This document shows positions 42,869-49,225 of a DNA stretch of 64,000 nucleotides, in pieces. Within the stretch, counting starts at the first letter, position 1; the number at the start of each line of letters is the position of its first letter. Location: positions 434,001 through 498,000 of the forward strand of contig JBBPEB010000034.1 in NCBI GenBank assembly GCA_039096225.1. Reading direction: 5' to 3'. The position numbers were made by a program, and so were the translations under genes. Origin of the DNA: Blastocystis sp. Blastoise (taxonomy: Eukaryota; Sar; Bigyra; Opalinata; Blastocystidae). The notes under the pieces are model-generated. The model saw only the letters and a list, made by a program, of their open reading frames with translations, was not told the DNA's origin and made no database searches.

Positions 42869-43895
42869 TATCTATTTTATTATTTGAATTTTTTAAGAAT
42901 ATTGGATTTCTATTTTCAAAAAAAGGGCTTTGATGAAACAATTAGTTTTTTCATGTATTTTTGTTAGTAGAATCATGGTAATTTTCTTTCACATTTAAAA
43001 GATCATTTTATCCATTTGTAAATAATTAGTTACTGTTCAATTCGATAATATAATATTGCTTTCATGTTGTTATTATAAAGGGATGAAATTCATTCCTAAT
43101 AAAAACACAAAAAGATCATGGAATGTAAACTTAAGTCATTAGTTGTTCATAATATTCGACTTTTTAAATTATACATATATATCTTGCAAATAATATAATA
43201 AAAATGATTCATTTTAAAACAAACCATACTCATTTATGATGATACTTTAAGCTTTTATTATAAATTAAGTCATTAACTAACTTTTTGTGTTTCCGTATTT
43301 CATTTTATTCAAGGCATTTTATGAAAAAAAAAACGAAAAATAAAATGCAAGTCATGAATTCCTTCTCAAACATTGCTCTTCTACTTCTATATGATAAATG
43401 CAATCGAGAGAAATCATATTTCAGCCAAATAATAAACATGTAACGAAATTAAAACGAGTATTTGACTATAATTAATTGAGTATGTCTTAGAGATTTCTTT
43501 CAATGTTATTATTCCTACAATATTAATATGTTATAGTCTATTCTAGAAGATTTAATTTGAGTAATGGGTAAACAAAGAAATTGCTTGCTGGCAAAACATA
43601 TTCTTTCTAGAAATTTCCGTTTTTCCAAATACGCCATTTCCATATAATTATTCACTTAATCACTATACTTTTTTTTATACCCGACAATAACCAATAAAAT
43701 GTCATAAACCATTGAATAGCCAATCAAATCCGTCAATAGCATCTCTTATGGAGTTACTTCGGTTTCTTCCAGAAAACCCGACACTTTTTTTGAGACATCG
43801 CTGTTTTGCATAACTTTATTGTTTTGTGATATCAACAATTTCGTTATTTTTGAAAAGCTCTCTTTTTCACCACTATACACTAATACTAAGCAACA
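42869..43895. promoter_or_regulatory. Divergent promoter between the kinase gene and Argonaute
   Basis: A 1-kb divergent spacer. The half nearest Argonaute is less AT-rich. It holds two CCAAT boxes (43691-43695 and 43720-43724) and a perfect three-unit heat-shock-element pattern, TTCnnGAAnnTTC, at 43605-43617, plus a two-unit TTCnnGAA at 43767-43774. These are candidate sites only. Confidence 0.4.
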
Positions 43896-46543
43896 ATGAA
43901 TACCACTCAATGTTCAATTTGCAAAGAATTCAAGCCTAATTCTTGTTTTTCGAAGAATCAACTAAGAACCCAACATAAGTGCCAAGACTGTCTTGCTGGG
44001 GGTGCTCGTATACATATAAATTTACATATTGTTTAAGTCTTTGTTACTTTTTTTATAAACTTTGATCAATTATTTTTTATATTTTATTATATTTTTTCTT
44101 TTGTAGCTGCTCATAATGAGTCCAATAAACCTCAGGAAGTTAAAATTCCTGGAATGAATCTTAAAGTTCAAGTTCCTCCAGGAATGTCTGCTCCTAAAGT
44201 TCAAGGTCCTCCTGGAATGAATGCTGGTAAGAAACAAGGTCCTCCTGGAATGTCTGCTCCTAAAGTTCAAGGACCTCCAGGAATGTCTGCTCCTAAAGTT
44301 CAAGGACCTCCTGGAATGTCTGCTCCTAAAGTTCAAGGTCCTCCTGGAATGTCTGCTCCTAAAGTTCAAGGACCTCCTGGAATGTCTGCTCCTAAAGTTC
44401 AAGGTCCTCCTGGAATGTCTGCTCCTAAGAAACAAGGACCTCCAGGAATGTCTACTCCTAAACCAGTTCAATCTGTTCCAGCTCCTAAGCCAGCTCCAGC
44501 TCCAGCTGGTCCTCAAGGTGCTTGGGGTAAACCTAGAAAAGCAGCTGCTGCTACTCCTGCTGCTTCTAATTTCCCTGCTCCTATTAGTAGATCTTCTGCT
44601 GGTCCTGCTCCTATGCCTGTTTCAAGACCTGCTTGGGGTCCAAATCCATCTTCTTTATCAAATATGCCTAAAGCTGCAATTGGTAAACAAGGTCCTACTA
44701 TATCTCCTGTAGTAAGCTCAAATCAAGCCTCATTATCTTTATCCAAAGCTAATGATGCTTCATCTGCTCTTACTCAGAATAATAGAAATGTTGTTGGTCC
44801 TGTAATACCTGCTCCTTCTGAATCAAATGCTGAAGCTATTCAAGAACTTGTTGTTGGTGAAAAACAAGAAAAAACTTATGATATTGGACCTTATATGGAT
44901 GGTTGTAGACCTACTAAAAAACATGGTACTAAAGGTAAAATTACCAAAGTTGCATCTAACTTTTTTAGGGTTAAACAAACAAAAGATTTAACATTTTATC
45001 AATATGATGTAGTGTATAATGTAAAAGATAAAGAAAATAATTTTAAGAAAGTTGCTCTTCCAGCTGATAAAGCAAAAATATTATTTGAAACTATGAAAAG
45101 TACACCTGATTATTTATCTAGAGTTGGTGATCGTTATTTATTTACTGATGGTAAAGCTATTGCTTATTCTTTATTGAAATTTCAATCTTATGATGCTTTA
45201 GTATGTATTCTCTATTTTATTTTATTTATTAATTATATATATATATATTTCACGTATAGATTAGTATGAAAGAAGGTGATAAGAGTCGTGTTTTTAATAT
45301 AGTTATTACTATTACCCCTAATGTAATTGAAGTCAATAAAGATACATTAAATAAACCAGATAATGCTAAAGTATTACCTCCTATGGATATGATGCATATC
45401 TATAAACAAACACTCACTAAATCTTATTTTGGTCGAAGTGTATATGATGCTCGTTTAGGTAGTACAGTATTAGGTGCAGGTGCAGAGTTATTATGGGGTT
45501 ATTCACAAGCATTCCGTTATTGTGAAGATGGTTTATTTAATATTATGGAACCTACTGCTAGTCAATTTCATATGGGAGGTCCTCTTATGGATCTATGTAA
45601 TGATGTATTTATTTATATTTGTTTTTTTTTTTTTTTTTATATTTATTTTTTTTTTTTTATTATTATTATTATTATTTTATGTTATATATTATATATTATA
45701 TAGATTTTATTTACGGATATAAAAGTAGTAGGTAAATCTTGTCCTCCAGGTAGAAATTGTTCTTTAGAACCAAGACAAATTGAATCTTTAAAAAGTGAAT
45801 TGATTACTTTAAAGGTAACAACAAAACATTTAGGATATGAACGTAAATATGGTATTACTGGTATTTCTAATGTTGCTGCTGATAAAGATATGTATGTTAA
45901 TTTTATTTTTATTTTTATTATTATTTTTTTTTTTTAATAATTACAATATAATAACCTATATATATATATATAGGTTTGAGATAGAAGATGCTAATGGTAA
46001 TAAGAAGAAAGTATCTGTAGCTCAATATTTTGCTCAACAATATGGTATTCGTTTACGTTTCCCTGGTTTACCTTGTGTACAAAAACAAGATTGTAAATTA
46101 CCTATAGAAGTATGTAATGTACCTGCTGGTCAAAGACGTACTCAAAAAATGAATTCGAAACAACAACAAATTATGGTTAAGGTATTTATTATTATTTTTT
46201 TATTTTATTTTTTATTATTTTTTTTTTTTTTTTATTATATATTATTATTATTATTATTATATACTATATAGAGTAGTGCTATTCCTCCAGATCAGCGTAA
46301 AGAGAAGATAATGAATTATGCTAGAGGTCAAGATTATCAAGGTAATGGATATTTAGATGCTGCGGGTATTAGTATTGATAAGAATATGACTCCTGTACCT
46401 GCTCGTGTTTTAGATGATCCTACTTTAATGTATAAGAAAGGAACAAGAGATGAAGCTATTCGTGCTAAAGATGGTCAATGGAATCTTAGAGATGTTCAAC
46501 TCTATAAAACTGTTCCTATTGTAGGTTTATTTGTTATTATTAT

Positions 46544-46582
<39 letters not shown>

Positions 46583-48247
46583 CTTTTTTTTTTTTTAATA
46601 TTTTATTATATATATAAAATCCTAAATAAATAAATTAATACTATAGAAATCCTGTGGTTTACTTATATTAAATGTGCGTCGTGGTCGTCCTACACGTTAT
46701 GATTCAAATATAATTAAATCATTTTTAACAGGATTAAAATTTAGTGGTGTAGTTATCGGTGCTGATTGTTTAGCTTCTTTAGATTTACGTAGTGAAACAA
46801 ATGGTGATAGTTATGATACTATTTATAATGGTTTAATTAAAGAATATGAACGTTGTAGACGTGGTCGTTTTGGTGCACCTCAAATTATATTTGTGTTTAT
46901 GCCTACTAAAGATAGTACTATGTATAGATCCATTAAGAAAGTTACTGATAGTATTTTAAGTGTTCCTTCTCAATGTCTTGTTTGGGAACGTAATTTTAGT
47001 TCAGATCGTGGATTATCTCCTCAATATACAGGTATTTATTTTATTTATTATTTATTTTTATTTATTATTATTATGATTTTTTTTTTTTTTTTTTATAAAT
47101 CTTAATAAATACATTTAATATATCCACTTTTTCAAATAATTATAATCATAATAATATACAGCTAATGTTGCCTTAAAGGTAAATACTAAGTTAGGTGGTA
47201 TGAATACATTCTTACAAAATGATAATCGTCTTATTGTATATATATATATATATATATATATAATAATAATATAGTTATTAATATATATATATATATATAG
47301 TTCAGTAAGAATACAATGATATTAGGTGCTGATGTAACACATCCTATGAGAGGAGAAGCTGATGTTTCTATTGCTGCTGTTGTAGCTTCTGTTGATCCTC
47401 ATGCTAGTATATATATTGGTGAAGCTCGTTGTCAAAAAGCTAGACAAGAAATTATTTCTGATTTAGAAGAAATTATGGTTAGTTTATTAGGATCTTATCA
47501 AAAATATAATAATGGTAAACTTCCTGAAAAATTAATCTTTTATAGAGATGGTGTTGGTGATGGTCAATTTGGAATTGTTTTAGATCAAGAAATACCTCGT
47601 ATTTTTGAAGCTTGTAAATTTTACAATTATAGACCTCAACTTACATTTTTAATTGTTCAAAAACGTCATAATGCTCGTTTCTTCCCTCTTGATCGTAATT
47701 TCACTTCTAGAACAGGAAATGTACCTGCAGGTACTGTTGTAGATACGAATATTACTGATAGATGGGCATTTGATTTCTATCTTAATTCTCATAATGTTTT
47801 ACAAGTATATATTTATATATATAATATATTAATTATTATTATAAATATTATATATATTTTAATTGTTATTTGTTCTTATAACTAATATATATAAATAGGG
47901 TACTGGTCGTAGTGGTTATTATACATGTATTTATGATACTGTTGGTTTTAATGCTGATGATTTACAAGAATTAACATATCGTCTTTGCTATTTATTCTGT
48001 AGAGCTACAAAATCTATTAGTGTTTGTGCTCCTGCTCGTTATGCTCATCATCTTGCTTTTAGACATAGAGATATATTAGGCGTTGCCGATGGGGGTCGTA
48101 GAGGGTATTTATATATATTTATATATGTTATAAAATATTATATTTTATTTAATAATAAATAATTATCTATTTTTTTATAGTGATAATCTTAGAATTCAAA
48201 GTGTTAAAATTGATAAAACTATGTCCACAAAGATGTATTTCGTTTAA
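43896..48247 (+). CDS. AGO: Argonaute with Stc1-like zinc finger and PPGM repeat array
   Basis: Eleven exons join exactly: 43896-44007, 44107-45200, 45260-45604, 45704-45891, 45974-46181, 46272-46520, 46647-47031, 47162-47235, 47301-47804, 47899-48104 and 48181-48247. They give 1143 residues ending MYFV, a normal Argonaute terminus. Residues 1-37 hold a four-cysteine finger (C6, C9, C29, C32) with FSKNQL, like the Stc1 domain that links RNAi to chromatin in fission yeast. Residues about 60-159 are nine 11-residue repeats of GPPGMSAPKVQ type. The N, PAZ, MID and PIWI domains follow. The slicer tetrad is complete: D896 (GADVTHP), E935 (RQEI), D968 (YRDGVGDG) and H1103 (YAHHLAFR). It should cleave RNA guided by small RNAs. 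No Dicer or polymerase gene is in the window. Confidence 0.95.
44160..44470 (+). repeat. 33-base coding minisatellite encoding PPGM repeats of Argonaute
   Basis: Nine tandem units encode PPGMSAPKVQ-like 11-mers; unit 2 reads PPGMNAGKKQ and the last has an extra residue. Silent third-position differences (GGT/GGA, CCT/CCA) distinguish the units, so the peptide is kept while DNA drifts. Confidence 0.93.
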
Positions 48248-48516
48248 AAGTACTATTGTCGTTCTAGTCTTGTGTTAACGGCTTTTTTTTTTAATAAGTA
48301 ATTATTGTTTTTATATGTTTTAATTCATTTTTTTTGTGTTTCCTTATTTTCATTTTATTAATGATCTTAAAGAAATATAAAGTTTATGCATTATTATGTT
48401 GTTTATTTCTTTTTGTTTAGTTTATGAAAAATATGTTATAAATATACTTATTTTAGAAGAAAAAAATAAAAATAGAATTTCTTCAAGTAATAAAAAATTT
48501 AAATTATTTTTTGATT

Positions 48517-48589
48517 GTCCGTGTAGTGTAATGGCTAACACATTGCTCTCCGGAGGCAAGGATTGTGGGTTCGAGTCCCACCTCGGACG
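48517..48589 (+). tRNA. tRNA-Arg (anticodon CCG)
   Basis: A 73-base cloverleaf without intron. The acceptor stem GTCCGTG pairs with CTCGGAC apart from one T-T mismatch. The D stem is GTGT/ACAC. The anticodon stem TTGCT/GGCAA carries loop CTCCGGA, giving anticodon CCG for CGG codons. The T stem and loop are GTGGG-TTCGAGT-CCCAC. The B box GGTTCGAGTCC is intact and a TTTT terminator follows at 48595-48598. CGG is rare in this AT-rich coding sequence but is used in the GC-rich exon motifs. Confidence 0.93.
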
Positions 48590-49225
48590 TATTTATTTTC
48601 TAGATTTAAAATGAATAGTAGTGTATATGCACTTACAAGATGTTTTATTTCATTTTGACGGAATTCAAAGCATCTATTTTTATTTTAAAATGAGTTATTC
48701 ATGCTAAAAAGAGATTTTAAATGAAAATGATCAACATTACTTTTTTTAATGATCTTTTTAATGATTTGATACTATATAAGGATAATATGGTTCAATTCTA
48801 TTTGTAAATTTAATGAAATAGCAATATTCTGTTTGTAAATTAGAATTAGATATGTTTATTGAGATAAATATATCATAAATAATTATTAGGAAATAATTAG
48901 TTTGTTTTGGAGTTACTTTGAATATGCAAGATGATTTTTAAAAATGAGTTTATATTCAATTGAAACTTGAAAATGGAAAAAACAATAAATATACATATAT
49001 TTAAACATTGAGAAAATAGAGATAACCAAAAAAAGAGTTGAAATGAAGCTGAAAAGAGTCATAATTATACAAGATAATAAAGAATAGTCACAATTTGCAA
49101 AAGTGACTAAAAGAAATGAGTTAATATATTCATCTATATACTAAAATAAACTTAAATGTTCATCTAAAAAAAGAGTAGAAATACAAAAATATATATATAT
49201 ATTTATTATTTATAGATCACTCAAT
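48590..49225. other. Intergenic region, no gene seen
   Basis: Between tRNA-Arg and the 3' end of the PIG-W gene. AT-rich with no further tRNA or coding signal. Confidence 0.5.

Follow-up and report, generated by a model that had tools for sequence, protein, structure and literature searches.

A Blastocystis Argonaute with a four-cysteine finger and nine PPGM motifs, putative ligands of GYF domains

Introduction

Silencing by animal microRNAs includes an arm in which TNRC6/GW182 adaptors, GIGYF proteins and 4EHP take part, and to our knowledge the way in which Argonautes repress mRNAs without GW182 adaptors outside animals is largely unclear. According to the available text of PMC12249416, GIGYF2 binds TNRC6A through a PPGL motif, and an excerpt of PMC12171015 gives the consensus of GYF ligands as PPG with F, I, L, M or V as the next residue. 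A further recorded ligand is SmB/B', which in human cells is bound by the GYF protein CD2BP2 and also recruits the WW protein FBP21 (PMC11412891, in the portion available). Within the literature joining Argonaute and the GYF domain, titles and abstract openings do not describe an Argonaute that carries such motifs as an array of its own, and those of the papers listed on Blastocystis with Argonaute, Dicer, RNA interference or small RNA do not describe the gene presented here.

The DNA analysed, a stretch of 64,000 nucleotides referred to below as the window, belongs to Blastocystis sp. Blastoise, of the lineage Stramenopiles, Opalinata; Phaeodactylum and Aureococcus are stramenopiles as well. 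These two genera are included in the legend of an alignment of Stc1, a protein whose family is found in fungi and algae and whose LIM domain is a tandem finger (PMC2875855, Bayne and colleagues, as far as the text available goes). In fission yeast, the same portion of that source reports, mutation of the LIM domain abolishes association with Ago1/RITS, yet CLRC is still recruited when Stc1 is tethered. The Argonaute of the window combines, ahead of its core, a finger that resembles a part of Stc1 with nine motifs that fit the GYF consensus.

Gene model and Argonaute core

The Argonaute gene lies on the + strand of the window (43896-48247) and, as rebuilt from the DNA, it comprises 11 exons that encode 1143 amino acids. 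The 10 introns of the splice model are all GT-AG, with a GC content of 3-14%, and the last base of the stop codon is 48247. The position of the start codon is regarded as settled, since a TAA is found in frame at 43887 with no ATG between it and the start. For Blastocystis sp. Blastoise, NCBI has a hypothetical protein, WA158_006668, that is identical to the model across 1143 of 1143 residues. A sequence-only reading of this DNA had proposed that exon 1 (43896-44007) splices to 44107, and both the GT-AG junction of the model and the identical NCBI protein agree with it; the rebuilt gene likewise contains everything that this reading had placed ahead of a slicer Argonaute, namely the four-cysteine finger with FSKNQL and the nine PPGM motifs. 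The parts of the gene, drawn from the splice model unless other evidence is given, are as follows.

43896-44007, + strand: exon 1, which codes for the complete zinc finger and runs from residue 1 through residue 37 to base one of codon 38 (splice model, identical NCBI protein, upstream in-frame stop)
44008-44106, + strand: intron 1, GTATAC...TTGTAG, 99 bases, 14% GC
44107-45200, + strand: exon 2, the N-terminal extension, probably disordered, and the start of the Argonaute N domain (splice model, pLDDT)
45260-45604, + strand: exon 3
45704-45891, + strand: exon 4
45974-46181, + strand: exon 5
46272-46520, + strand: exon 6
46647-47031, + strand: exon 7
47162-47235, + strand: exon 8
47301-47804, + strand: exon 9, coding for the greater part of PIWI
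47899-48104, + strand: exon 10
48181-48247, + strand: coding part of exon 11 with the stop codon, C-terminus ...MYFV
44907-48247, + strand: Argonaute core, residues 305-1143, in exons 2-11, with N, L1, PAZ, L2, MID and PIWI and the D/E/D/H residues intact (Pfam, alignments, AlphaFold2)

In the neighbourhood of the gene, a tRNA-Arg (anticodon CCG) is located on the + strand at 48516-48590, about 270 bases past the Argonaute stop. Upstream, between 41800 and 42900, minus-strand open frames appear by eye to be protein-kinase-like and broken by short introns; a Pfam scan of one of these frames gave no kinase match.

The core matched the Pfam families Piwi (294 bits), PAZ (75) and ArgoL2 (41) over their cut-offs, while ArgoN remained just below it (29.8 bits, cut-off 30.9) and ArgoMid and ArgoL1 matched more weakly, also under cut-off. 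Judged by bit scores to solved chains, the protein is an Argonaute of the AGO clade, nearer to AGO than to PIWI proteins: the best chain was that of AGO2 (8d6j, 376 bits) and the best PIWI chain reached 149 bits. All four residues of the slicer tetrad are present (D896, E935, D968 and H1103), as are the residues that we take to form the 5'-phosphate pocket (Y825, K829, Q841, K866 and K870). At the presumed Trp-pocket positions R688, Y654, E695 and P590 the residues of the Blastocystis protein are F, Q, none (a gap) and N; these changes were set aside as support, most of the pocket positions being presumed ones. C691 and P700, named as Trp-pocket residues in the available text of PMC9262622, are both kept.

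In an AlphaFold2 model built with a 26-row alignment, the core was well modelled, most of its ten-residue blocks having a pLDDT of at least 80, and residues 1-304 were nearly all below 50. The tail is, on this model, probably disordered; the low values suggest it, the other rows of the alignment being unlikely to inform the tail.

The PPGM array

The tail contains nine PPGM motifs with a period of 11 residues, which start at residues 61, 72, 83, 94, 105, 116, 127, 138 and 149, and which are preceded at residue 51 by IPGM, a tenth unit in decayed form. The array and the two tryptophans that follow it are located as listed.

44162-44462, + strand: 33-bp tandem repeat, 9.1 copies with 88% matches, encoding the nine PPGM motifs; the commonest unit is PPGMSAPKVQG
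44175, 44208, 44241, 44274, 44307, 44340, 44373, 44406 and 44439, + strand: starts of the PPGM codons
44523-44525, + strand: W177, part of the WG in QGAWGKP, past the PPGM array and ahead of the core
44634-44636, + strand: W214, part of the WG in RPAWGPN, likewise past the PPGM array and ahead of the core

These are the two tryptophans of the first 300 residues, each in a WG, and the tail thus differs from GW182/TNRC6 adaptors, whose GW/WG repeats are many and bind Ago; it is rich in proline throughout. With Met among the residues allowed after PPG, all nine motifs agree with the GYF consensus and lie in the low-confidence, probably disordered segment, so that the tail likely offers nine putative ligands for GYF domains.

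The array exceeds what chance would produce. The PPGM codon pattern CCNCCNGGNATG, searched as exact codons within contiguous exons and for PPGM alone, matched at 26 sites of the 33.3-Mb genome, whereas the reversed pattern gave 9 matches. Nine of the 26 belong to the Argonaute, six to a single gene on contig C2 and the other 11 stand singly; hence 15 of the 26 fall in two arrays. The copy number of PPGM is by itself no evidence of selection, because the units are near-identical and the repeat is probably a young one. Among the nine units the PPGM codons show three synonymous differences and no amino-acid difference, against six and eight, respectively, in the spacer codons, a contrast that is consistent with selection on the motif, although the changes are few and the repeat looks young.

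A set of 198 Argonaute-like proteins was used for comparison, 81 of them from one search and the 117 others from the best 120 of 3,564 matches. At least one PPG-hydrophobic motif occurs in 8 of these 198 proteins, and at least two solely in that of Blastocystis, among the matches listed. By the patterns used, none of the 197 other proteins listed has a four-cysteine finger in its first 300 residues. No other Argonaute-like protein named as Blastocystis appeared among the matches listed in either search, many entries of which are nameless.

The C2 gene, with its six exact codon matches (C2:13420-13656), holds the sole other PPGM array of the genome scan. Fragments of it joined by eye matched solved chains of Sm domains and of SmB (E 2e-16 for the best, 9e-14 for the next, weaker beyond), and by these matches the gene is that of SmB. 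The sole other array found is therefore located in a known GYF ligand, SmB being a ligand of CD2BP2.

Candidate readers of the array

That GYF-domain genes should be sought in the same genome had been part of the sequence-only reading, and two domains over the Pfam cut-off were found, at C16:106272 and C32:584483. The first, with 59.5 bits in the genome scan, has as its nearest solved chains GIGYF2 (E 8e-8), GIGYF1 (1.1e-6), yeast SMY2 (6e-5), a plant protein and CD2BP2 (0.033). The groove and steric-clash residues of GIGYF2 named in the available text of PMC12249416 (Y538, D540, Q546, F549, W557, Y562, F563 and L567) are identical in eight of eight cases, with the numbering assigned in this analysis. 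By these likenesses the C16 protein is of the GIGYF/SMY2 type and its ligand groove is conserved.

Near the N-terminus of the C16 protein, a frame lying upstream and presumably part of the same gene encodes IRYTKSELLELF. It includes YTKSELL, a candidate motif for binding the eIF4E family; compared with the published YxYx4L-hydrophobic motif, which along with auxiliary motifs characterises the 4EHP-binding region of GIGYF, the segment IRYTKSELL has I in place of the first Y. A search of this N-terminal segment against solved chains did not recover the 4EHP-binding peptide of GIGYF2, and in view of this and of the replaced Y the link of the C16 protein with 4EHP is one drawn by eye.

The second GYF domain (C32:584483) scored 30 bits and its groove reads, by eye, GPY and GCF where GPF and GYF are expected. 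It lies downstream of an acidic segment, in which Pfam listed nothing, the GYF domain being the only family matched. We take this protein to be probably of the CD2BP2 type. Either this protein or proteins with WW domains could be alternative readers of PPGM.

Matches to IF4E were twelve, at six loci. One of them (C29:1234317-1234980), joined by eye from three frames, gave 113 bits with eIF4E type 2 (4EHP) against 83 bits with the best other eIF4E, and it has YSFW, with Y at what we take to be a position of W in class I. According to these scores it is a 4EHP-like cap-binding protein. By the C16 and C29 matches taken together, this genome codes for a 4EHP-like protein as well as for a GYF domain of the GIGYF type.

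The four-cysteine finger

The finger is encoded entirely by exon 1, and FSKNQL (residues 18-23) lies between its two pairs of cysteines, C6-C9 and C29-C32.

43911-43991, + strand: C4 zinc finger, C6xxC9-x19-C29xxC32 with FSKNQL, similar to the Pfam Stc1 domain in its second part (PF12898 match)

When residues 1-54 were compared with Pfam, Stc1 (PF12898) was the sole family listed, with 20.7 bits and an E-value of 6.2e-4; the whole protein as query gave 15.0 bits. Both scores fall short of the gathering cut-off of 24.8, so the profile comparison proposed by the sequence-only reading did not place the finger in the family. The match spans positions 51-83/84 of the profile and consequently corresponds to one finger of a tandem-finger domain, the complete LIM being absent. 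The likeness exceeds cysteine spacing, because none of 10 shuffles of the finger that preserved the cysteines matched Stc1. Folded alone, the 37-residue peptide of exon 1 gave a pLDDT of 74.7 and two helices, a result given no weight here. A homology search with residues 1-45 returned no candidate among proteins of about 116-369 amino acids.

Two matches to Stc1 were listed in the genome, both below cut-off, the finger of the Argonaute being the best (E 0.018). The other is a C4 finger on the minus strand at C33:1175063-1175158, which matches Stc1 and DUF4428 about equally, both sub-cut-off, in a gene that appears to run into an ASCH domain.

Kinship of the Argonaute finger with Stc1 is accordingly weak at the sequence level, and the finger is most likely a protein-interaction module akin to one part of Stc1. 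Since LIM mutants of Stc1 lose Ago1 and still recruit CLRC, a LIM-like finger alone would not be a chromatin bridge. A role in chromatin may exist all the same, as Pre-SET and SET matches occur together at C32:683826-685209; the genome also has 11 chromodomain matches, 9 of them above cut-off.

Other components of RNA interference

Two RNase III models were run over the genome and each gave one match below threshold, at the same place, with none over cut-off. As to the Clr4-like and Dicer genes that were to be sought, the scans gave the Pre-SET/SET pair and no RNase III domain over cut-off. Because the exons of this genome are short, a Dicer could be missed. A model of RNA-dependent RNA polymerase gave no match in the genome scan and its control was likewise blank, so that absence is not established.

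A second gene with PAZ and PIWI is located at C17:830500-840000. The GADVTHP of AGO2 is replaced in it by GLSRNG and the YRDG by YREC, and its product is probably a non-cleaving PIWI-like protein, as far as these motifs tell. It was considered as a partner slicer and rejected on account of the same replacements; no PPGM match was found at the locus. A partial copy of this gene (C23:150500-160000) shares 81-84% DNA likeness over the PAZ side, and the similarity ends before the PIWI side, for which no match was listed within the stretch examined. The copy was not called broken, since the stops in its PAZ match may be intronic. A PAZ match on C21 was below cut-off and was judged spurious.

Discussion

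The gene with its array and intact slicer residues is present in a genome that also encodes a 4EHP-like protein and a GYF domain whose groove is conserved. From these elements we infer a model in which small-RNA loading, binding, complex formation and repression would follow one another, and to which we give about even chances. The tail of the Argonaute, with its nine PPGM tags, would be a multivalent GYF ligand in cis. The GIGYF/SMY2-type protein (C16:106272) would act as its main reader and would bring the 4EHP-like protein (C29:1234317) to the targets of small RNAs, where competition for the cap would repress their translation, and the finger would serve as an interaction module. The PPG-hydrophobic tags that animals carry in trans on TNRC6/GW182 would thus be hard-wired into the Argonaute. 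The multivalent GYF-binding array that had been proposed from the letters alone holds at the level of its parts, which are two GYF domains, a GIGYF-type groove that is kept, a 4EHP-like protein and the fit to the consensus; its binding is predicted.

The reader of the array could instead be nuclear, either the CD2BP2-like GYF protein or WW splicing factors that would act as on the SmB tail, and the Argonaute would then be tied to the spliceosome. The sole other PPGM array found being in SmB, the existence of a second GYF gene taken as CD2BP2-like, and the recruitment of CD2BP2 and FBP21 by human SmB/B' (PMC11412891, in its available portion) speak for it; the deviating groove (GPY and GCF, by eye) and the flanks of the motifs, MMPPGM[MP] in SmB and mostly GPPGMSAPK in the Argonaute, make it unlikely. 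It is also rather unlikely that the array binds nothing specific and expanded neutrally, as low-complexity sequence within a disordered tail, as the near-identity of the 33-bp units, the proline-rich character of the whole tail and the presence of the array in one of the 198 Argonaute-like proteins listed would suggest. Against such an expansion speaks that nine of nine units fit the ligand consensus while the protein sequence of the spacers varies, even if the changes are few, and that the other array found in the genome sits in a known GYF ligand.

Regarding the finger, the sequence-only reading had suggested a built-in Stc1 that may link the Argonaute to the H3K9 methylation complex. That the finger would recruit a methyltransferase complex to Argonaute targets gains from Stc1 being the sole Pfam family listed for residues 1-54, from the failure of all 10 cysteine-preserving shuffles to match, from the finger ranking first among the Stc1 matches listed for this genome, and from the Pre-SET/SET pair and the nine chromodomains over cut-off. 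We nevertheless consider this role very improbable: the score is below gathering and covers one finger of two, a similar finger precedes an ASCH domain elsewhere in the genome, and in the available text of PMC2875855 the LIM of Stc1 serves to contact Ago1 and not to recruit CLRC. That same requirement of the LIM for Ago1 association would fit a different role, as a related finger is here fused to an Argonaute: the finger might contact the Argonaute in cis, folding back on it or dimerising it and so regulating its state. This role is compatible with the reading of the array by the GIGYF-like protein. It is quite unlikely, in our estimate, given that residues 1-304 are of low confidence in the full-length model, where the alignment is not expected to inform the tail.

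On the preferred reading of the array as a ligand of the GIGYF-like protein, a further and more tentative proposal is that the Argonaute took over the job of the adaptor, so that repression by GIGYF and 4EHP would proceed without GW182, along an axis that stramenopiles would share with animals, whether inherited from a common ancestor or arisen independently; this is possible, with chances clearly below even. Because one genome encodes an Argonaute with its own GYF ligand, a 4EHP-like protein and a likely reader, the question of repression without GW182 can be put to the test with a single domain and a peptide. If true, the arrangement would show in minimal form how nature silences without adaptors, and it would provide a silencing effector to study in Blastocystis, a gut protist.

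Comparison with known systems

Canonical Argonautes of the AGO clade, such as AGO2 and the oomycete AGO, share with the Blastocystis protein PAZ and PIWI over cut-off, the D/E/D/H residues and what we take to be the 5'-phosphate pocket, whereas the 300-residue N-terminal extension with finger and array is an addition of the latter. With Stc1 of fission yeast (PF12898) it has in common a C4 finger with FSKNQL that matches the second part of the profile; the Blastocystis finger is, however, sub-cut-off, single where the LIM is tandem, and fused to the Argonaute, while Stc1 is a separate protein. The C-terminal tail of SmB/B' resembles the Argonaute tail in bearing several PPGM motifs in low-complexity sequence, but its carrier is spliceosomal and its motifs are differently flanked. 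Compared with the TNRC6/GW182-GIGYF-4EHP arm of animal miRNA silencing, the Blastocystis tail has only two WG motifs. Both systems have a PPG-hydrophobic motif in genomes that encode a 4EHP-like protein and a GYF domain of the GIGYF type, and they differ in the placement of the motif: in animals it is a PPGL on a separate GW adaptor, and in Blastocystis it is a PPGM, present nine times, on the Argonaute itself.
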